From: an uncultured Oscillospiraceae bacterium
Lineage (GTDB): Bacteria > Bacillota > Clostridia > Oscillospirales > Ruminococcaceae
Assembly: GCA_934446455.1 (NCBI GenBank)
Contig: CAKSEE010000006.1
Coordinates: forward strand, 1-64,000
Reading direction: 5' to 3'
Length of the DNA stretch: 64,000 bases
Made by a program: the position numbers and the translations under genes. A model generated the notes under the pieces. That model was not told the origin of the DNA, searched no databases, and worked only from the letters and a program-made list of their open reading frames with translations. This document shows positions 7,274 to 58,148 of this stretch, one piece after another; positions within the stretch are counted from its first letter, which is position 1, and each line of letters starts with the position of its first letter.

Positions 7274-8632
7274 TTAGTCGCCCTTTTTAAGAGTCCCGGT
7301 TATCTTGTGCCAGATATGCTTGAACTTGTCGCGCGTGTCGCGCATTTCCTCGCGGAAGCCTACGTTAATGCTGCGGAAGCGCTGAATGTTGTCGGTGATG
7401 GAGCTCATGGCGCTGAAGAACTCCTCTTGCAGCATGCTCTCATGGCGCTGCGTGGGGACGTGGTTGTCCACGTTCTCCTTTATCACCTTGTAGCGCTCGT
7501 AGGCGCGCTTTACGGAAGTTTCCCACGAGATGTAGACCTCGTCCATTGCATGAGCGCCTATCCGGCGCACCTCGTCGCGGTGGGCGCAGGCGAATCGCAG
7601 CTCCTCGGCTATGCTCTGCGGGTCGGGCTTGCAGAGAATGCCCGTCCTGCCGTGGGTTATGCCCTCTGCGGCGCAGCTGCCTTCAATAAGCAGCGAGCCT
7701 ACCCCGCACGCCGCCGCCTCGCGCACCACTATGCCGTTGGTGTCGTACTCCGACGGGAACAGGAACAGGTCCGCAGCGGTGTAGTACACGCGCAGCTCCT
7801 CGCGGTCGCTTATCGCCCCTGCGAACACGCACAGGTCAGACAGCCCCAGCTCCTGCGCGTATTCCTCTATCTCCGCCTTGTCCGCGCCGTCGCCCACAAA
7901 CATCATGCGGAAGCTGCGGTCGCTCTCGCTTAAGAGCTTAAGCGCGTCAAGGATAAGCCTTATGCCCTTGTACCACATAAGCCTTCCCACAAAAAGGAAG
8001 AGCGGGGCGTCCTGCGATATGCCGTATGCGTCGCGCAGCATTGCCGCAAAGTCGTTGTTGGCGCGCCCGCAGGGGAAGTCAACGCCGTTCTCCATGACGA
8101 TGTAGTCGCCCTGATAGCCGAGCGAGCGCAGGTTCTCGCCCGCGCCGCGGCTTACCGTCCACACCTCGTCGCACGCGGAAATGTTGGTGACGACAAGCTT
8201 TATCGCCTGCTTTACCATAAGCTCGTTGGGAAGCGCGCGCCTGATGTCCACGTCAAATTTTGTGTGGTAGGTGAGCACAAGCGGCACTTCCGTCTTTTCG
8301 CGCAGAACGCGCGCCATGAGCGTTGAGGCGAACGGACAGTGGCTGTGGATAATGTCAAAGCGCTTTTCCCGCAGGCTCTCAAGGTTTCTGCTGCTGAACG
8401 GGTAGCCCGCACGGTAGCCGCATATCTTCTCAATGTTAATGCTCTTGTAGCGCACCACGTCAAAGTCGTAGTTGTCCACCGCGCCCGGATAGGCGGGCGT
8501 TACTACCGTAGCGCTGCCAAGCTCGGAGTTTATCACCTGCGCATAGTTGGTTACGGCGTTGGCAACGCCGTCTATCACAGGCGGAAAGGAGTCGTTCATA
8601 AGGCAGATGTTGAGTTTTTCGTTGATATTCAT
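7274..8632 (-). CDS. GT4-family glycosyltransferase
   Basis: A 452-residue GT-B fold retaining glycosyltransferase. The N-terminus (ICLMNDSFPPVIDGVANAV) is typical of GT4 enzymes such as bacterial diglucosyl-diacylglycerol synthases. The C-terminal half carries the donor-binding region with FVGRLMWYKGIRLILDAL and the E-x7-E motif (EYDTNGIVVREA). A long helical, partly charged tail (about 400-452) follows and could hold the enzyme at the membrane. The start at 8632 is chosen because GGAGGTG lies nine bases upstream; an ATG six codons earlier sits on the Shine-Dalgarno itself. It lies 49 bases after a GH5 gene and is probably the last gene of the flavodiiron-GH5-GH5 transcript. Glycolipid or surface glycan synthesis is inferred. 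Confidence 0.88.
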   Translation of the reverse strand: MNINEKLNICLMNDSFPPVIDGVANAVTNYAQVINSELGSATVVTPAYPGAVDNYDFDVVRYKSINIEKICGYRAGYPFSSRNLESLREKRFDIIHSHCPFASTLMARVLREKTEVPLVLTYHTKFDVDIRRALPNELMVKQAIKLVVTNISACDEVWTVSRGAGENLRSLGYQGDYIVMENGVDFPCGRANNDFAAMLRDAYGISQDAPLFLFVGRLMWYKGIRLILDALKLLSESDRSFRMMFVGDGADKAEIEEYAQELGLSDLCVFAGAISDREELRVYYTAADLFLFPSEYDTNGIVVREAAACGVGSLLIEGSCAAEGITHGRTGILCKPDPQSIAEELRFACAHRDEVRRIGAHAMDEVYISWETSVKRAYERYKVIKENVDNHVPTQRHESMLQEEFFSAMSSITDNIQRFRSINVGFREEMRDTRDKFKHIWHKITGTLKKGD

Positions 8633-8681
8633 TCCGAAATGCACCTCCATTGTTCCGCAGAAGCCGCCACATAGCCCTGCG

Positions 8682-9827
8682 TCAGCCGTTCATTGCCTTA
8701 ACGGCGGATTTTACAAATGTTTTTATATACTCAGGGTACTCCCACGAGAGCGTATCCCTGTGGATAAGCCCGTATTTCTCGCTGCCCGTACCATATCCAT
8801 TATTGTCCCACAGGAAAACGGGTATACCGTACTGCCCGAAAACTGCGGGGAAATACTCAGCCCAGCGTTTTCTGTCCGCAGAGTTGTCCTTGTTGGTAGC
8901 GCCGCACTCGCCGATTATAACGCCGTAGCCGCGGCTTACAAAGCGCTCGTAAAGCGTCTGCGAAAGCCACTTAAGCTCGCGCGTGCTGTTATCGTCGTCG
9001 GCAGAGAAGCTTGTCGTGCCGGGGGTCTGCATGGCGAAGGAGTAGGGCGTGTAGGCGTGTATCGATACGATAAGTCGCTCGTCGTCGGGCAGTTCAAACC
9101 CGTCCAGCCCGCTTGCGGAAGCCGCGTAGGTCGGCACCATAAGGAAGCGCGTTTTGTTGTTTCCGCCCGAAGCGCGCACGGTCTTTACAAAGTCGGCGTT
9201 GAGCCTGTTCACTACCTCTCTGCCCTCTGCGTCGCCGCCGTTCCACTCAACGTTCGTGCCCCTCTTGCGCGGCTCGTTCATGCCCTCGAAGATAAGGCGC
9301 GCGTCATAGCTCTTAAAGCGCTCCGCAACCTGCTTCCAGATAGCGCAAAGCTCCTTTGAGGCTGCCTTGTAGGTGTCGTTGTACGGGTCGTTGAAGTCCT
9401 CGTGGTGGGCGTTAAGTATAACGTACATATCCTCGTCGTAGGCGTAATCCACAACCTCCTGCACCCTGTCGAGCCACTCCTCGTCAATGGTGTAATTATT
9501 CCCCGAAACGTGCTTGTACCACGTTGTGGGAACGCGCACCGCATTGAAGCCCGCGTCCTTTACCGCGAGGATAAGCTCCTTTGTGGTTTTGGGGTTGCCC
9601 CAGCTCGTTTCGGTGGAAAGCCCGCTGCCGCCCGTCGCGTCAAGCGCGTTGCCGAGATTCCAGCCCACGTCTATCCCCTTGCAGAACTCCGCCGCCGTCA
9701 TTTCCTCATAGGCGGGCGCCGCAGGCTCGGGAAGCTGCTTTACCGCGTCCGCAAGGTCCTTTGCGGAAGCCGCGTTAAGTGTGGAAAGCGCGGTAACTAC
9801 CGCGAGGATCTTTGATAAAATGCTCAT
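8682..9827 (-). CDS. GH5 endoglucanase (cellulase-like), second of a tandem pair
   Basis: A 381-residue TIM-barrel retaining hydrolase. VGWNLGNALDA near residue 54 and FEGMNEPR place it near GH5 subfamily 4, which acts on beta-glucan, xyloglucan or cellulose. The acid/base is E185 (GMNEPR) and the nucleophile E307 (IIGECGA). A hydrophobic N-terminus (residues 5-20, then AASA) looks like a signal peptide. No dockerin or CBM is attached. Its ATG overlaps the stop of the upstream GH5 gene (ATGA), so the two are translationally coupled; they are paralogues, sharing most barrel motifs. Export and glucan cleavage outside the cell are inferred from family and signal. Confidence 0.93.
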   Translation of the reverse strand: MSILSKILAVVTALSTLNAASAKDLADAVKQLPEPAAPAYEEMTAAEFCKGIDVGWNLGNALDATGGSGLSTETSWGNPKTTKELILAVKDAGFNAVRVPTTWYKHVSGNNYTIDEEWLDRVQEVVDYAYDEDMYVILNAHHEDFNDPYNDTYKAASKELCAIWKQVAERFKSYDARLIFEGMNEPRKRGTNVEWNGGDAEGREVVNRLNADFVKTVRASGGNNKTRFLMVPTYAASASGLDGFELPDDERLIVSIHAYTPYSFAMQTPGTTSFSADDDNSTRELKWLSQTLYERFVSRGYGVIIGECGATNKDNSADRKRWAEYFPAVFGQYGIPVFLWDNNGYGTGSEKYGLIHRDTLSWEYPEYIKTFVKSAVKAMNG

Positions 9828-11035
9828 TGCTGCTCCGCTCCTTTAACAAGCCCCGCAGTATAGTCGGGGAATCTGCACTCGCCCGTGGTTCTGTCGAATA
9901 TGCCGAACGTTTCGCCGCTGTAAATGGCGTTGTTATCCCACACAAAGCAGGGAATGCCGTGCTGCTTCATGGTTCCGGTGTAATACTCCGCCCACTGCGC
10001 GCGGTACTCCTCGTTGGGGAGGGTCTGCCCCTCGTCGTTTTCGTAGTAGCGGTTCATGGCGCCCATTTCACCGATTATTACCGCCTGCCCCCTGCTTATA
10101 AACAGCCTGTCCAGAAGCTCCGCAAGGCCGTCTATCTCGCGCGTGCAGGGAGTGCGCTCCGCAAGCCACTTTGCGGTGCCGTCCTTTTGCAGCGCAAACG
10201 AGTACGGGATATACGCGTGAACCGACACGATGAGTCTGTCCTGCGCGCTGTCCTCGGGGATAACGAGCGCGGAGAGCGCCTCCTCGCCCGAGTTTGCCGC
10301 GTACGGGCATACCATGAGAAAGCGGTTTGCGTTATTGCCGCCCGTTGCGCGCACGGCGTCCACGAATACCTTGTCAAAGTAGTTTACAACGCTCCTGCCC
10401 TCGTCGTTGCCGCCGTTCCACTCCTGTTCGGTGCCGACCCAGCGCGGCTCGTTCATGCCCTCGAATATAAGGCGCTCGCCGTACTTTGCAAAGCGCTCTG
10501 CTATCTGCGTCCACGCTTTGGTCAGTATCTGCGCGCCCTGCTCCTTATTGGACTCGTAGGGGTAATTCCACTCCTCGTGGTGCATATTGAGGATAACGTA
10601 CATATCGTTGTTGTAGGCGTAGTCCACAACCTCGTTTACGCGCGCCATCCACTCCTCGTCTATGTTGTACTGCTCGTCCATGTGGAGTCCCCACGACGTT
10701 GGAACGCGCACGGCGTTAAAGCCCGCGTCCTTTACCGCGAGAATGAGCGCCTCTGTGGTTTTTGGCGCGCCCCAGCTCATCTCGCTTGCAACGCCCGTGC
10801 CGCCTGTGGCGTCAAGCGTGTTGCCGAGATTCCACCCCACCTTTATCTGCGTGGTGAACTCAAGCGAGCCCATGCTCTCGTCCATGGGATCGTCCACCTG
10901 CGAGGTGTAAAACGCCGTCTGCTCAGTAAGCGAGGTTTCTGCGGAGTCTGTGGATTCCGCCTTCTTGGCGCAGCCCGCAAGCGAAAGCGCGCATAACGCC
11001 GCCGCAAGAAGCGCTGCCGTTCTTTTTATGTTCAT
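9824..11035 (-). CDS. GH5 endoglucanase lipoprotein, first of a tandem pair
   Basis: A 403-residue secreted hydrolase. The N-terminus is a lipoprotein signal (LSLAGC, lipid-modified C22), so it should be anchored to the outer face of the membrane after a ~40-residue Ser/Thr/Glu linker. The catalytic module has VGWNLGNTLDA, acid/base E196 (GMNEPR) and nucleophile E323 (IIGEMGA). GGAGG lies before the ATG and the gene begins 10 bases after the flavodiiron stop. Compared with its downstream paralogue it keeps a lipid anchor where the other has a plain signal-like segment, so the pair may split work between cell surface and medium. Confidence 0.93.
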   Translation of the reverse strand: MNIKRTAALLAAALCALSLAGCAKKAESTDSAETSLTEQTAFYTSQVDDPMDESMGSLEFTTQIKVGWNLGNTLDATGGTGVASEMSWGAPKTTEALILAVKDAGFNAVRVPTSWGLHMDEQYNIDEEWMARVNEVVDYAYNNDMYVILNMHHEEWNYPYESNKEQGAQILTKAWTQIAERFAKYGERLIFEGMNEPRWVGTEQEWNGGNDEGRSVVNYFDKVFVDAVRATGGNNANRFLMVCPYAANSGEEALSALVIPEDSAQDRLIVSVHAYIPYSFALQKDGTAKWLAERTPCTREIDGLAELLDRLFISRGQAVIIGEMGAMNRYYENDEGQTLPNEEYRAQWAEYYTGTMKQHGIPCFVWDNNAIYSGETFGIFDRTTGECRFPDYTAGLVKGAEQQ

Positions 11036-21829: not shown

Positions 21830-21904
21830 GCGCGCGTTACCCCTCCCCCCTTCGCGCAGACATTTCCCGCATATTACGGCAGTAATTCTGCCATATATTT
21901 TGCA

Positions 21905-21933
21905 TTGCAGCTCACCGCCTTATCGTGTATAAT
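21905..21933 (+). promoter_or_regulatory. Promoter of the four-cysteine micro-gene
   Basis: TTGCAG (21905-21910, weak), 17 bases, TATAAT (21928-21933). The RNA would start near 21940 and fold at once into CCCC-GCAA-GGGG (21943-21954), a GNRA-capped 5' hairpin that could stabilise the message. Confidence 0.65.
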
Positions 21934-21977
21934 TAGACCATACCCCGCAAGGGGGAAACGCAAAGGAGGTGAACGGT

Positions 21978-22049
21978 ATGTGCAGCTTCTTCTCTTCTCT
22001 GTGCGAGTGGATAAAGTCTTGCGGAATCAACTTCCCGTTCTGCGGCTAA
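21978..22049 (+). CDS. 23-residue four-cysteine peptide, unknown function
   Basis: The frame encodes 23 residues: it begins MCSFFSSLCEW and ends INFPFCG, with cysteines at 2, 9, 15 and 22. AAAGGAGGTGA, a near-perfect anti-16S match, lies seven bases upstream, better than most ribosome sites in the window. A promoter with a 5' hairpin precedes it and a strong terminator follows 58 bases after the stop, so it is a complete single-gene transcript. The peptide is amphipathic with aromatic residues and no signal sequence. No modification enzyme or transporter gene is adjacent. It might be a metal-binding or membrane-active regulatory peptide, a sporulation micro-protein like its neighbour spoVM, or a leader peptide. 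The function is not recognised. Confidence 0.6.
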   Translation: MCSFFSSLCEWIKSCGINFPFCG

Positions 22050-22107
22050 TGCGTAGTTACGCGACATAATCTGTGCGCATTCGTGACATAAGTGCGCGTA
22101 CATCTGA

Positions 22108-22150
22108 CCGCCTGCGGCAGGGGGCTTCCCCGCTGCGGGCGGTGTTTTTT
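22108..22150 (+). terminator. Strong terminator after the four-cysteine micro-gene
   Basis: CCGCCTGCGGCAGGGG pairs with CCCCGCTGCGGGCGG around GCTT, and TGTTTTTT follows. Confidence 0.85.
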
Positions 22151-22238
22151 CTGCCCGAAAGCGTTTGTAACAAAATCCCGCCGCGCGAATAATATGTAGC
22201 AGTCCCAAAATGACAGCGGGTATTGCGGAGGTGATGTT

Positions 22239-22406
22239 ATGCGCGGACCGAAAAGGCGCGGGAAAGGCTGCACGACGGGCGTTCTGCTGGCGCTTGCGGC
22301 GTTCCTTGGCGCTGTTATGTGCATTTCGTTCTTCTCGGTAAAGGTGCTGCTCGTCACGGTCGCGGTGCTGCTTATCGTTCTGGGAATATTCCTGCTGAAG
22401 CTATAG
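22239..22406 (+). CDS. 55-residue two-helix membrane protein upstream of spoVM
   Basis: A basic N-terminus (MRGPKRRGKG) is followed by two hydrophobic helices (TTGVLLALAAFLGAVMCISF and VKVLLVTVAVLLIVLGIFLL), predicting a hairpin membrane protein. GGAGGTGA lies upstream at good distance. The spoVM ATG begins 15 bases after its stop, so the two are almost certainly co-transcribed. I do not recognise a named family. Because SpoVM marks the forespore surface, a role in spore envelope formation is an inference from location only. Confidence 0.65.
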   Translation: MRGPKRRGKGCTTGVLLALAAFLGAVMCISFFSVKVLLVTVAVLLIVLGIFLLKL

Positions 22407-22421
22407 CGAAAGGGGTACATA

Positions 22422-22511
22422 ATGAAAATTGTTGTTCTTAAAAGTCCGCGAATGTTTGCGGGTCTGCTGCGGCTGATGTTCGGCATAAAAAAGCAGCCTG
22501 CGGAGGAATAG
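22422..22511 (+). CDS. spoVM: Stage V sporulation protein M (SpoVM)
   Basis: The 29-residue frame begins MKIVVLKSPRMFAGLLRLMF and then GIKK. It follows B. subtilis SpoVM (26 residues, beginning MKFYTIKLPKFLGGIVRAML) closely: same start, a Ser/Leu-Pro at positions 8-9, one amphipathic helix and a basic tail. SpoVM lies flat on the positively curved forespore membrane and recruits SpoIVA to start coat assembly. AAAGGGG is six bases before the ATG. In Bacillus spoVM sits after thiN; here thiN is 26 kb away, so the gene has moved. A terminator follows 31 bases after the stop. Confidence 0.85.
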   Translation: MKIVVLKSPRMFAGLLRLMFGIKKQPAEE

Positions 22512-22605: not shown

Positions 22606-24612
22606 TCAGGCTGCCTGCGCCGAGCCGTCCGCGCTTGTCTGAGAGTCCGTTCCCTGCGGGGACTGCGAACCCTGCGAGTCCTGCGGGGGCTGCGAACCCT
22701 GTCCGACCTGTGGGGGCTGTGGCTGCTCCCCGTCAAAGCTGAAGCCGTCGGGGATATTTGCCGGGTCGAAGCCCTCGGGGATATTGTCCGAGCCGTCGGG
22801 GCGTTCCCCGCGCGGTCTGTCGAGGCGGTCGCCGAAACCGCCGAAACCGCCAAAGCCGTTCGCTCCGCTGCCGCTTACGCCGTCGGTCGCAGTGACCGTG
22901 TAAACGCTCACGCCGTCAACGTAAAGTGCGTACTCCTCCCCCGACTTAAAGTCCTCAGTCGAGAATATGAGCGACTCGCACTTCTTGAGCGCGTCCACGG
23001 ACAGCACAACGTTGTCCGCGCTGTCGCGTATCTCAATAAAGCTGCCCTCCGCCACGCTGTAGTTTATCGCAAGGCAGGGCTGCGAAAGGGTGGTGGGGGT
23101 CTGCGCCATGCCCGACGAGCCGAGCGCCACGAGCGTGCCGCCGCTCACCGCAAACGAGTCGTCGAAATCGAGCGCGCCGTTGCCGTTGTCCGTGGGACCG
23201 TTTATTACCACCGTACCGCCGCTCATGGCTATCGTGCCGTTGCTGTCAAGCCCGTCGCCGTCAGCGTTTATCGTAAGACTTCCGCCCGAAATGCTGATGT
23301 AGTATTCGCCGCTCGACTCGCTGTAGCCGAAGAAGCCCGCATTGTCGCCGCCTGCGGCATTAACGCCGTCGTTGTGCGCGTTAAGCTCGATAACGCCGCC
23401 GCTCACCTCGACGCTCTTGCCCTCAAGTCCCTCGTAGCTCTTGCCGATGTATATATCGCCGCCGCTTATCACAAGCGCCTCGTCCGCGTGTACGCCGTCG
23501 TCGCCCGAGGACAGCTTAAGCGTGCCGCCGCTTATTTCCGCAGTGCCGTTCGAGTGAATCGCGTCGTCAGACGAATCTATGTCGAGCGTGCCGCCGCTTA
23601 TCGTTATCGCCGTGCCCGCCTTTAGACCCTTGGCGCTGTCTGTAATTTCGTCGGTCGTGTTGTCGCGATCGAACGGATTGCCGAAGCTCTCGGTCCTGAG
23701 CACCGCGTCCGCGCTGCCGCCGCCCGATACCACGGTTATAGCGCCGCCGTCCACCGCAAGCGCGGTTTCCGCCTGAATGCCGTCCTTGCCCGCATTTACG
23801 CTTATCGTGCCGCCGCTTATCGTGATTTTGCCGACAGACATATCGCCGTTGTCGGAGGCTGTGGTCTTTATGCCGTCGTCGCCGCTTGTTACGTTAAGCG
23901 TGCCGCCGTAGAGCTTTACATAGTCCCTGCCCTTTACGCCGTCGCCGGCCGCCGTTACGGTAACGCTGCCGCTGCACAGCTTGAAGCCGTCCTTGCTCTT
24001 TATGCCGTCGGAGTACGCGCCTTTTACCGCAAGGCTGCCCGCGCCGTTTATCACAAGCGTGCACTTGCTGAATACCGCCGCGTCGGGCTCGTCCTCGCCC
24101 TCCTCGAACACATAGTCCGCGCTGTCTGACAGGCTGTTCTCCGTGCCCTCTTCAAGGGTCAGCACCAGCTTGTTAGCCTTTTTGCAGAGGATAACGCTGC
24201 CCTGCGCGGAGGAGAGGTCTGCGCCCGCCAGGATAAGGTACACGTCCGCTTCCTTGCCGGCGTCGATAACGATGTTCACGCCCGAAGCCGTGCCCGTTAC
24301 GCGGTACACGCCCGCCCTGCCTATCGTGACTGTCCCGCCCGAAACCGTGACCGCGCCGTTTGAATCAGCGGCGGTCGCGCTGCTGTTGCTGAACGCTATC
24401 TCGCAGCTGTTCTCTGCCGAAGGCTCCTCCTCGGGAACGTCCGCAGCCTTTGAAGCCGTGGCTGCCGCCGATGAAGCGGTCTGCGCCGTGCCGGTGTTCA
24501 TAAGCGGGGTGGAGCTTGCCGTGCCGTCCGATGAAGCGCCGTCCGTGCAGCCTGTGTTCAGCGCAAGCGCCAGCGAACAGAACGCCGCAAGCGTCTTAAA
24601 CGAAGTTTTCAT
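22606..24612 (-). CDS. Cthe_2159-like carbohydrate-binding beta-helix lipoprotein
   Basis: A 668-residue lipoprotein (signal ending LNTGC). After a Ser/Ala/Glu linker, residues ~90-560 are a long run of short repeats with ISGGT, GGDAxxG and GIxxxGxxxISGG patterns (TISGGTLDIDSSDDAIHSNG, KLSSGDDGVHADEALVISGG), typical of the right-handed beta-helix of Clostridium thermocellum Cthe_2159, which binds cellulose and pectin-like polymers with calcium. A beta-sandwich-like segment follows and then a ~70-residue Gln/Pro/Gly/Ser tail of low complexity. It is the last gene of an operon with DUF4956 and VTC-domain proteins, a known partnership. Binding rather than cleavage is expected. Confidence 0.85.
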   Translation of the reverse strand: MKTSFKTLAAFCSLALALNTGCTDGASSDGTASSTPLMNTGTAQTASSAAATASKAADVPEEEPSAENSCEIAFSNSSATAADSNGAVTVSGGTVTIGRAGVYRVTGTASGVNIVIDAGKEADVYLILAGADLSSAQGSVILCKKANKLVLTLEEGTENSLSDSADYVFEEGEDEPDAAVFSKCTLVINGAGSLAVKGAYSDGIKSKDGFKLCSGSVTVTAAGDGVKGRDYVKLYGGTLNVTSGDDGIKTTASDNGDMSVGKITISGGTISVNAGKDGIQAETALAVDGGAITVVSGGGSADAVLRTESFGNPFDRDNTTDEITDSAKGLKAGTAITISGGTLDIDSSDDAIHSNGTAEISGGTLKLSSGDDGVHADEALVISGGDIYIGKSYEGLEGKSVEVSGGVIELNAHNDGVNAAGGDNAGFFGYSESSGEYYISISGGSLTINADGDGLDSNGTIAMSGGTVVINGPTDNGNGALDFDDSFAVSGGTLVALGSSGMAQTPTTLSQPCLAINYSVAEGSFIEIRDSADNVVLSVDALKKCESLIFSTEDFKSGEEYALYVDGVSVYTVTATDGVSGSGANGFGGFGGFGDRLDRPRGERPDGSDNIPEGFDPANIPDGFSFDGEQPQPPQVGQGSQPPQDSQGSQSPQGTDSQTSADGSAQAA

Positions 24613-24640
24613 ACTATACCGGTCCTTTCGGAATAAAGGT

Positions 24641-25312
24641 TTACAGCTCGTCGCGGTCTGCGGGGAGTATTCCGCAGCACACCGTAAGATTGCCGTTCCT
24701 TACGCGTATCTTGTCAATGAACTCTTTCTCGCGCGATGCGTCCTTCAGGACTACCTCGTATCTCAGGTCAAACAGCGTGCCCATGCTCGTGGTCTTTGCC
24801 TGCGTAAGCTTCCACGAGGAGAGGTACTCCGCGAAGATATCGTCGAAGCAGTCCATGTAGTTCAGGTCCTCTGGAATCATTATGCGCAGCTGCTTTGCGC
24901 CGCCGCCTGCGCTGAACGCGGGCACGAACGTGAGCACCGCAAGCACCGCGCCTACTACCACCGCAAGCATTACCGCAAAGCCAACGTAGCCCATGCCCGT
25001 TGCAAGACCTATGCCCATGGCGTAGAAGATGAAGCATATATCGCGCGAGCTGCCCGGCGTTGAGCGGAAGCGCACGAGGTTGAACGCGCCCATGACCGCA
25101 ATGCCCGCGCCCACAGAGCCGTTTACGAGCATTATTACCGCCTGCACGAGGGTGGGAAGCACCACCATCGACACCATGAGATTCTTTGAGGCGCGCTGAT
25201 TCTTAAGTCTGTAAAGCATTGCCGCCGCAAAGCCAAGCACAAGCGAGGCAAGCGTGCATATAAGCGCAGTCTGTACCGTTAATCCCGTTTCGTCTATGAT
25301 ACTTCCGAACAT
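24641..25312 (-). CDS. DUF4956 membrane protein
   Basis: A 223-residue protein with four or five hydrophobic helices (ALICTLASLVLGFAAAMLY, LVQAVIMLVNGSVGAGIAVM, GYVGFAVMLAVVVGAVLAVL) and a soluble C-terminal domain of about 80 residues. The central motif FNLVRFRSTPGSSRDICFIF is the DUF4956 hallmark. The family commonly sits beside VTC-domain and CotH genes. Its start overlaps the end of the VTC gene by 19 bases, so they are coupled. The biochemical function is unknown; a membrane partner of the VTC polymerase is a reasonable guess. Confidence 0.85.
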   Translation of the reverse strand: MFGSIIDETGLTVQTALICTLASLVLGFAAAMLYRLKNQRASKNLMVSMVVLPTLVQAVIMLVNGSVGAGIAVMGAFNLVRFRSTPGSSRDICFIFYAMGIGLATGMGYVGFAVMLAVVVGAVLAVLTFVPAFSAGGGAKQLRIMIPEDLNYMDCFDDIFAEYLSSWKLTQAKTTSMGTLFDLRYEVVLKDASREKEFIDKIRVRNGNLTVCCGILPADRDEL

Positions 25313-26022
25313 TGTTCCGCTCCTGTTCTGTCGTTAGTGTTATGTTCCGCAGCGTAAATGCTGCCGTATTTTGAGAATGGCCGCTGATATATCCCGAGCC
25401 CGGACAGCATATGCGCCGCCCACAGCGGCATTGCGCCAGCCGCCTTTATCTCCATCACGCAGAACGGCTGCCCCTCGAGAAGCGCGCCGCCGTCGCCCGC
25501 GCGCAGGTCAAGCGCCGTGCGGCGGTAGCGTATGCGGCTGTCAAAGCTCACTCGGAACTCCCTGTCCTGCGCGCCGTAAAACGCCCTGCGGTCGTAGCAT
25601 ATCACTATCCGCGGCACGAGCCTGCGGCTGTCGCGCATATAGGCTATCTCGTCAAGCTGCTGCGTGTGAAGCGGCGGCTCCCCGCCGTTTACAAGAAAGC
25701 TGTACGCCTGCGCGTAGGTAAGCTCTTCCCTGCGCTTGTAAACCACGCCCATGAACTTCTTCTTTATCTCAACGAACGCCGCGGAGTCGCCGCGCGGTAC
25801 GCCGTATGTGCGCAGCCGCAGCTTCTCCTTGTAAACGGGCTTGTCAAGCGAAGTGCGGATAAGCTCGTCGTTTTCGTTGTCAAAGTAGATGTTGCATATG
25901 CTCTGCAGCCCGTAGCTGTCCTCGGTGAGCATTCCCGCAGCGGCGCCGCGCACTGCCGCGTACTGCTCCGCGGTAAGCGGGAATTTCATCTCGCAGCGCC
26001 TGAACGTGTTCTTGTAAGCCAT
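25294..26022 (-). CDS. VTC-domain protein (polyphosphate polymerase-like)
   Basis: A 242-residue soluble protein with the VTC/tunnel-type fold. Basic and acidic strands carry the expected residues: RRCEMKFPL near the start, YFDNENDELI, YKEKLRLRTYG, FVEIKKKFMGVVYKRR, and IRYRRTALDLR, with MEIKA near the end. In yeast Vtc4 this tunnel makes polyphosphate from ATP; the bacterial versions beside DUF4956 and CotH have no proven product. GGGAG lies seven bases before the ATG. It is the first gene of the operon with DUF4956 and the Cthe_2159-like lipoprotein. Confidence 0.87.
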   Translation of the reverse strand: MAYKNTFRRCEMKFPLTAEQYAAVRGAAAGMLTEDSYGLQSICNIYFDNENDELIRTSLDKPVYKEKLRLRTYGVPRGDSAAFVEIKKKFMGVVYKRREELTYAQAYSFLVNGGEPPLHTQQLDEIAYMRDSRRLVPRIVICYDRRAFYGAQDREFRVSFDSRIRYRRTALDLRAGDGGALLEGQPFCVMEIKAAGAMPLWAAHMLSGLGIYQRPFSKYGSIYAAEHNTNDRTGAEQCSEVS

Positions 26023-47005: not shown

Positions 47006-47081
47006 GGAAGTTTAGCTCAGCTGGGAGAGCATCTGCCTTACAAGCAGAGGGTCATAGGTTCGAGCCCTATAACTTCCACCA
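47006..47081 (+). tRNA. tRNA-Val (anticodon TAC)
   Basis: A complete 76-base cloverleaf: acceptor GGAAGTT with AACTTCC, D-loop AGCTCAGCTGGGAGAGC, anticodon stem TCTGC/GCAGA around CTTACAA, T-loop GGTTCGAGCC, and encoded CCA. Confidence 0.96.
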
Positions 47082-47083
47082 AT

Positions 47084-47160
47084 GGCCTGGTAGTTCAGTT
47101 GGTTAGAACGCCGCCCTGTCACGGCGGAGGTCGTGGGTTCGAGTCCCATCCAGGTCGCCA
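47084..47160 (+). tRNA. tRNA-Asp (anticodon GTC)
   Basis: A 77-base cloverleaf with anticodon loop CTGTCAC between CCGCC and GGCGG, T-arm GTGGGTTCGAGTCCCAT, and encoded CCA. It starts two bases after tRNA-Val ends. Confidence 0.96.
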
Positions 47161-47164
47161 TTAT

Positions 47165-47240
47165 GCGGATTTAGCTCATCTGGTAGAGCGCCACCTTGCC
47201 AAGGTGGAGGTAGCGAGTTCGAGCCTCGTAATCCGCTCCA
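47165..47240 (+). tRNA. tRNA-Gly (anticodon GCC)
   Basis: A 76-base cloverleaf: acceptor GCGGATT with AATCCGC, anticodon loop TTGCCAA between CCACC and GGTGG, T-loop AGTTCGAGCC, and encoded CCA. Confidence 0.96.
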
Positions 47241-57684: not shown

Positions 57685-58148
57685 TCCTGCTCCTCCTCTA
57701 CCCACTCTATAACCTTGTCCTTGTAGAGTATGCCGTTAAGGTGGTCTATCTCGTGGCAGAACGCCCTTGCGAGAAGCCCGCTTCCCTTGTACTCAACGGG
57801 CTTTCCGTAGCGGTCGAGCGCCTTTACCTTAACGCGCGCGGGGCGCTTTACCCTGCCCATTCTGCCCGGGTAGGAAAGGCAGCCCTCAGGCTCTGCCTGC
57901 CTGCCGCGCATTGCCGTTATAACGGGGTTTACAAGCTCTATGCGCCCGTTGTCGTCGTCCACGTCTATCACCACAACGCGCCTTGACACGCCCAGCTGCG
58001 GCGCTGCAAGCCCCACGCCGTCCGCGTCGCACATCGTTTCGTACATATCATCGAGCAGCTGCCAGAGCTCCTCGTTAAACTGCGTTACAGGCTCGCAGTG
58101 GGCGCGCAGCCGCTCGTCCCCGAACCTCAGTATCTCTCTTACCGCCAT
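57681..58148 (-). CDS. def: Peptide deformylase, second of a tandem pair
   Basis: A 155-residue metal-dependent enzyme that removes the formyl group from new proteins. All three motifs are present: GVGLAAPQLG, EGCLSYPG (metal Cys) and FCHEIDHLNG (metal His and Glu). GGAGGTG lies before the ATG. It directly precedes and overlaps fmt, the usual partner, so this is probably the main deformylase. Confidence 0.96.
   Translation of the reverse strand: MAVREILRFGDERLRAHCEPVTQFNEELWQLLDDMYETMCDADGVGLAAPQLGVSRRVVVIDVDDDNGRIELVNPVITAMRGRQAEPEGCLSYPGRMGRVKRPARVKVKALDRYGKPVEYKGSGLLARAFCHEIDHLNGILYKDKVIEWVEEEQE

Follow-up and report, generated by a model that had tools for sequence, protein, structure and literature searches.

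The 64-kb stretch of DNA analysed here (the window) contains, judging from its sequence, a real, tiny gene that stands on its own and encodes a cysteine-rich peptide some 20 residues long, which is a member of an undescribed family of peptides with 17–27 residues and a nearly invariable Met-Cys start. The microgene stands beyond chance because 22 further genomes carry the unit together with a homologous peptide (23 loci in all), and a chance ORF was ruled out by these homologues and by the codon counts in close relatives. That the gene is translated is highly probable. At the level of sequence comparison the family is real, its unit is mostly monocistronic and its peptide is under selection; the best reading is a family of putative amphipathic thiol microproteins that would be constitutively expressed.

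The microgene and its surroundings in the window

The earlier note had described a complete unit consisting of a promoter, a GNRA-capped hairpin, a ribosome-binding site (RBS), an ORF and a strong terminator; all of these elements were located (Table 1), and the description proved correct, if understated. The encoded peptide has its cysteines at positions 2, 9, 15 and 22, as read from the window sequence. The transcript is predicted to start at about 21940, leaving three nucleotides ahead of the 5' stem. The ribosome site was rightly placed among the best in the window: apart from being unique as an exact word, AAAGGAGGTGA had two matches with at most one mismatch versus 0.59 expected. An RBS-like word preceded three of the window's ATG ORFs of 15–45 residues with at least three Cys, the microgene included; in the ORF at 22234 it was placed only 2 nt from the ATG, and in the ORF at 58051 (minus strand) it was a GGAG distant from the start.

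Table 1. Elements of the microgene unit in the window
Feature	Position	Strand	Details
TTGCA box with -35, TTGCATTGCAG	21900..21910	+	hexamer TTGCAG 21905-21910
-10 box TATAAT	21928..21933	+	17 nt after -35
5' hairpin CCCC-GCAA-GGGG, GNRA loop	21943..21954	+	near predicted mRNA start
Shine-Dalgarno AAAGGAGGTGA	21962..21972	+	sole exact match in the 64-kb window
Micropeptide ORF MCSFFSSLCEWIKSCGINFPFCG	21978..22049	+	ATG 21978, stop ends 22049, 23 codons
3' UTR with two GACATAA elements	22063..22091	+	copies 22063-22069 and 22085-22091
Intrinsic terminator	22107..22151	+	stem 22107-22143, then T-run; -32.3 kcal/mol

The gene order proposed earlier, with carD upstream and spoVM downstream, was confirmed by profile matches. 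The upstream protein matched CarD_TRCF_RID with 35.8 bits, and its gene has a terminator-like hairpin of its own (21878–21892) upstream of the microgene. The spoVM gene at 22422, starting 373 nt 3' of the microgene stop codon, matched NF033436 with 38.6 bits (cut-off 31). Between the microgene and spoVM lies a hydrophobic ORF of 55 residues (22239–22406), preceded by a good RBS and lacking a family match in Pfam, NCBIfam or PHROGs. The Pfam scan of ten window neighbours identified a solute-binding protein, an AraC-type regulator, PNPase, ribosomal protein S15, a Cthe_2159-type carbohydrate-binding protein, a DUF4956 protein, a VTC-domain protein, a SMC/RecN-type ATPase, arginine repressor and NAD kinase. 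No peptide-modifying enzyme, of the sort expected near a RiPP precursor, was among these ten, in line with what the earlier note had stated. The genes for the Cthe_2159-type, DUF4956 and VTC-domain proteins are consecutive on the minus strand (22606–26022). The window also includes a T-box leader (1274–1485) and a three-tRNA cluster (47006–47237).

Distribution of the family

A scan with the CarD-like protein led to two Oscillospiraceae MAG contigs, one of which had a similar 23-residue ORF directly upstream of its carD-like gene. The genomes searched comprised 43 members of one Oscillospiraceae genus, family draws of 297 and 396 genomes, an order draw of 394 genomes and 80 chosen genomes. The unit was accepted in 9 of the 43 genus genomes (G001, G002, G303, G304, G305, G315, G316, G317, G318) and in 13 of the 396 family genomes (G002, shared with the genus, G119, G253, G192, G113, G196, G120, G409, G239, G169, G021, G265, G344), to which the order draw added one carrier, G787, with G002 and G021 recurring; these counts are lower bounds, because the peptide searches missed G318, G265 and G344 and most of the weak profile hits were left uninspected, and the loci are related, so that the counts are not independent. 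The distribution of the microgene is sparse.

The different searches contributed unequally. The peptide search of the genus gave matches in 10 of 43 genomes at E up to 10, and eight were accepted; the matches in G311 and G320 were inspected and not accepted as the microgene. The peptide profile gave hits in 133 of the 396 family genomes at E up to 1, and inspection of 30 loci plus two places resulted in eight accepted genomes. A family sequence pattern produced 12 matches in 10 of the 396 genomes and none when reversed; a match in G086 within a long glmS-like ORF was excluded from the count. A separate pattern matched G190 out of frame, and this match was discarded. The RNA model R1 matched 23 of the 394 order genomes at E up to 0.05, with G002, G021 and G787 accepted; among the other 20 matches, seven came with no listed ORF having an RBS and 13 resembled ordinary genes. 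Some searches demanded Cys or ATGTGY, which favours peptides starting with Met-Cys; the peptides of G318, G265 and G344, found from the promoter alone, nevertheless read MC..C.

Beyond the cellular genomes, the leader pattern occurred in 29 viral stretches, none with a microgene-like unit, the TTGCATTG box pattern had no hits in viral sequences, and tblastn with the G002 peptide found no match among phages or plasmids. The family peptides scanned had no match in Pfam, NCBIfam, PHROGs or PADLOC, and the two hits among PDB sequences (E 1.5 and 2.8) were at chance level. Rfam at the gathering score gave nothing for the window unit or for the microgene in 14 loci; low-threshold hits in the window unit, the best at E 0.14 with less than half the gathering score, were judged to be chance. 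Among the papers listed in literature searches, none dealt with the Cys-micropeptide family. The accessible text of PMC11364881 describes a catalogue with ORFs predicted down to 30 nt, which may contain the family without a name.

Conserved features of the unit and its peptide

A TTG -35 hexamer with 17-nt spacing to the -10 box was found in 22 of 23 loci, by construction in the three found by their promoter. The window hexamer TTGCAG is a weak match, absent from the output of the promoter scan; the relatives have TTGAAA, TTGAAC, TTGACA and similar hexamers at identical spacing. The -10 box was exactly TATAAT in 21/23 loci and TTGCATTG lay over the -35 in 17/23, again by construction in the three promoter-found loci. 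GGAGG was present no more than 20 nt from the ATG in 21/23, and the predicted transcript began with A-U in 18/23. Scanning 80 genomes for the TTGCATTG box at N19–21 gave 54 places in 34 genomes versus three with the reversed pattern: 15 were microgenes, and the other 39, some of which may not be promoters, included rpoB-, rsmH- and lipoprotein-like genes (N-termini read by eye). The idea of a regulon defined by the box was therefore ruled out, and the shared promoter pattern suggests recognition by the housekeeping sigma factor. Short ORFs behind TTGCATTG boxes in L169 (G344) and L177 (G098), with a common CCATACC..AAAGGAG leader and no Cys peptide, are possibly a second micro-gene family.

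The 5' stem starts at the predicted first base or a few bases from it, most commonly as AUCCC...GGGAAAUA, and encloses a loop of 3 to more than 100 nt; the GNRA loop of the window is not conserved among the relatives. A short stem, defined as at least four Watson-Crick pairs, three of them G-C, with a loop of up to 25, was present in 18/23 microgene leaders versus 1/39 control places (Fisher 3e-10), and in 15/19 leaders once the four members that a leader pattern or the RNA model had detected were dropped. The control places had the TTGCATTG box at equal spacing, though some may not be true promoters. G318, G787, G119, G192 and G253 failed this test; the last four fold other or longer stems, the first hairpin of G119 being larger. 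The leader of G192 (L066/L080) exceeds that of its near relative G113 by 94 nt, with the insert inside the 5' hairpin and the outer stem bases retained, and G253 is similar. Covariation in the 5' stem was not above shuffles in a MAFFT alignment, which was imperfect in that some rows were one base off; the CCC/GGG core of the stem was nearly invariant. In G409 (L053, C215:45353-45672) the hairpin-RBS-ORF block occurs three times as a 121-nt repeat behind a single promoter.

The 23 loci encode 21 distinct peptides, 20 of which start with Met-Cys (three members came from a pattern requiring C2) and which differ in length and C-terminus. Cysteine makes up 19% of residues across the 21 peptides, and its spacing is regular: a pair 7 apart was found in 17/21 peptides versus 7.2 in shuffled sequences, a level that no shuffle out of 2000 reached, and a pair 6 apart in 14/21 versus 7.4 expected. 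The rule is thus C-x6-C, replacing the 2-9-15-22 spacing that had been suggested from the window peptide. Pairs 2 apart (CxC), 3 apart (CxxC) and 4 apart, in 0/21, 3/21 and 0/21 peptides respectively, were all below shuffles. Non-Cys residues were conserved as well. With a predicted helix, the maximal hydrophobic moment exceeded composition shuffles (P<0.03) in 17 of 20 loci (G318, G344 and G265 excluded), being missed by G239 (0.059), G787 (0.060) and G169 (0.145). A stripe of Cys along one helical face was rejected as a general property, with P<0.03 in only 5/23 loci.

The substitution bias that the earlier note had proposed as a check was found in close relatives. Four disjoint close pairs had together 15 synonymous versus 5 nonsynonymous differences (pN/pS 0.074, binomial P 5e-8), a bias that was not uniform: differences were only synonymous in G001/G002 and G113/G192, 4 synonymous and 3 nonsynonymous in G304/G303, and 1 and 2 in G196/G120. 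The more distant pair G315/G317 had about 5 synonymous and about 14 nonsynonymous differences (pS 0.36, pN 0.23). Together with the Cys spacing, the codon counts suggest that the peptide itself is under selection.

The 3' UTR varied widely among loci. Over the 60 nt that follow the stop codon, 7/21 3' UTRs had GACATAA (shuffle mean 0.09) and 13/21 had ACATA (1.5 expected), counts inflated by relatedness of the loci. TACAT, which the accessible text of PMC3997798 gives as the EndoA/MazF site of B. subtilis, occurred in 7/21 versus 1.45 expected. A hairpin of -15 kcal/mol or stronger with a T-rich tail followed within 160 nt in 22/23 loci, counted without a shuffle control; the exception was G409, with its next repeat in this place.

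Putative function and alternative explanations

Our preferred explanation, offered tentatively, is an amphipathic thiol peptide made in quantity. The housekeeping sigma factor would drive strong and constitutive transcription, 5' decay would be slowed by a hairpin situated on or close to the first mRNA base, and heavy translation from a very good ribosome site would yield much peptide from a long-lived mRNA. In the window the stem is preceded by three bases, so that 5' protection is less sure there. Most likely the peptide would remain inside the cell, folded into a short amphipathic helix that lies against the inner membrane or a protein partner. Its C-x6-C thiols, two helical turns apart, may act between chains, as a reversible cross-link or a shared thiolate site, rather than as CxxC within one chain. 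The proposed behaviour of the mRNA has precedents in the accessible text of PMC3997798, according to which RppH of B. subtilis requires two or more unpaired nucleotides at the 5' end as well as G in the second position, and whole mRNAs gain stability from a strong Shine-Dalgarno or from occlusion of the 5' end. The leaders of the long-lived Bacillus mRNAs aprE and ermC, covered in the same text and its reference titles, resemble the microgene leader in combining a 5' stem-loop or occlusion with a strong Shine-Dalgarno; in contrast to them, the microgene hairpin recurs within one tiny gene with a variable loop, and the stability of its mRNA is a prediction.

The recurrence of leader and 3' UTR elements across loci, in a short transcript with a terminator, would also suit a dual-function or mainly structural sRNA, in which the ORF is secondary and the activity of a transcript of about 210 nt resides in the 5' hairpin and the 3' GACATAA. 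We consider this unlikely: the codon counts and the Cys spacing indicate selection on the peptide, the loop and the 3' UTR are widely variable, and the Rfam searches returned no family at the gathering score in the loci scanned. Still less probable is a combination of both views, a dedicated micro-mRNA of exceptional stability in which the 5' hairpin, the peptide and the 3' GACATAA cooperate to give an abundant membrane-surface peptide, whose paired Cys would sense or buffer redox or metals in strict anaerobes, with a possible second RNA function.

Secretion was weighed by comparison, made by description, with the phenol-soluble modulins, which are short amphipathic peptides without a signal sequence and sometimes occur in tandem copies. 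The family resembles them in its size, predicted amphipathicity and free-standing gene, in the tandem triplication in G409 and in that no signal sequence was obvious when the peptides were read by eye; it differs from them in being Cys-rich and in that no exporter was seen alongside the gene. A secreted peptide, whether a signal, a bacteriocin or a surfactant-like product made without a leader, is rather improbable, at about the level of the combined view. The absence of an obvious signal sequence counts against it, as do the net charge of -1 to +2 and the lack of any shared transporter, immunity or receptor gene among neighbouring ORFs of at least 70 residues (with profile annotation in the window only).

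Broadly, the family can be classed with other free-standing microproteins of bacteria. One of these is SpoVM, which in B. subtilis has 26 residues and forms an amphipathic helix on the membrane (PMC4307972, in its accessible part). The likeness extends to the predicted helix of the microgene peptides and, in the window, to a nearby spoVM, from which the earlier note had suggested a sporulation role. This suggestion gained no support, and a SpoVM-like sporulation protein is improbable. Across 19 stretches, no ORF cluster was shared by more than 4 (the window plus 18 others were compared; ORFs of at least 70 residues clustered by similarity, a limit at which another spoVM would escape listing), so that the link to spoVM was seen in the window only; most of the shared clusters reflected synteny between close relatives, and neighbours elsewhere were different. 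The peptides are Cys-rich, three of them had no match to NF033436, and the promoter, predicted to be of the housekeeping type, also precedes rpoB- and rsmH-like genes; the distribution, as described above, is sparse. The SpoIVA gene was present in 18/19 carriers tested, a link made uninformative by the equal frequency of the marker in the genus (41/43) and its presence in 153/177 genomes of the family sample.

As to other surroundings, five of the 14 loci scanned have a tRNA or tmRNA gene no more than about 700 nt away from the microgene: L064 and L066 a tmRNA upstream, and L010, L011 and L065 tRNAs. In L080 (G192; 8289–10614) a cysteine-desulfurase-like and then a ThiI-like ORF, named from their N-termini, directly follow the microgene; this pair was not seen as a general neighbour.

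A metal-binding or disulfide peptide had likewise been suggested from the window alone, and the cysteines are indeed conserved and abundant. A metallothionein-like or iron-sulphur redox protein is, however, as doubtful as the sporulation role, since the CxC and CxxC clusters that would mark it were rarer than in shuffles. A type I toxin would be compatible with a small amphipathic peptide and with the tandem copies in one genome (G409), and is very unlikely, considering that antisense promoter-like sites were found in only 2/23 units in a consensus scan and that the strong Shine-Dalgarno is unpaired in most leader folds. An attenuator leader peptide reading Cys-tRNA, to which Cys codons followed by a terminator might point, is the least credible: it calls for a regulated downstream gene on the same transcript, and the loci have no common downstream gene, a T-tailed hairpin in 22/23, three tandem units in G409 and conserved non-Cys residues. 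The sporulation-only, CxxC-metal, attenuator and type I toxin explanations are all weakened by these results.

The profile libraries searched are without a model for the Cys-micropeptide family, and the signature of 17-nt promoter spacing, 5' hairpin and MC..C-x6-C allows the gene to be found across the Oscillospirales. Its recurring 5' hairpin offers a natural test of mRNA 5'-end protection outside Bacillus, and the regular thiol spacing without CxxC represents unusual chemistry that a synthetic peptide some 20 residues long would suffice to test. If expressed as strongly as its signals suggest, the microgene would supply its hosts with a peptide in abundance.
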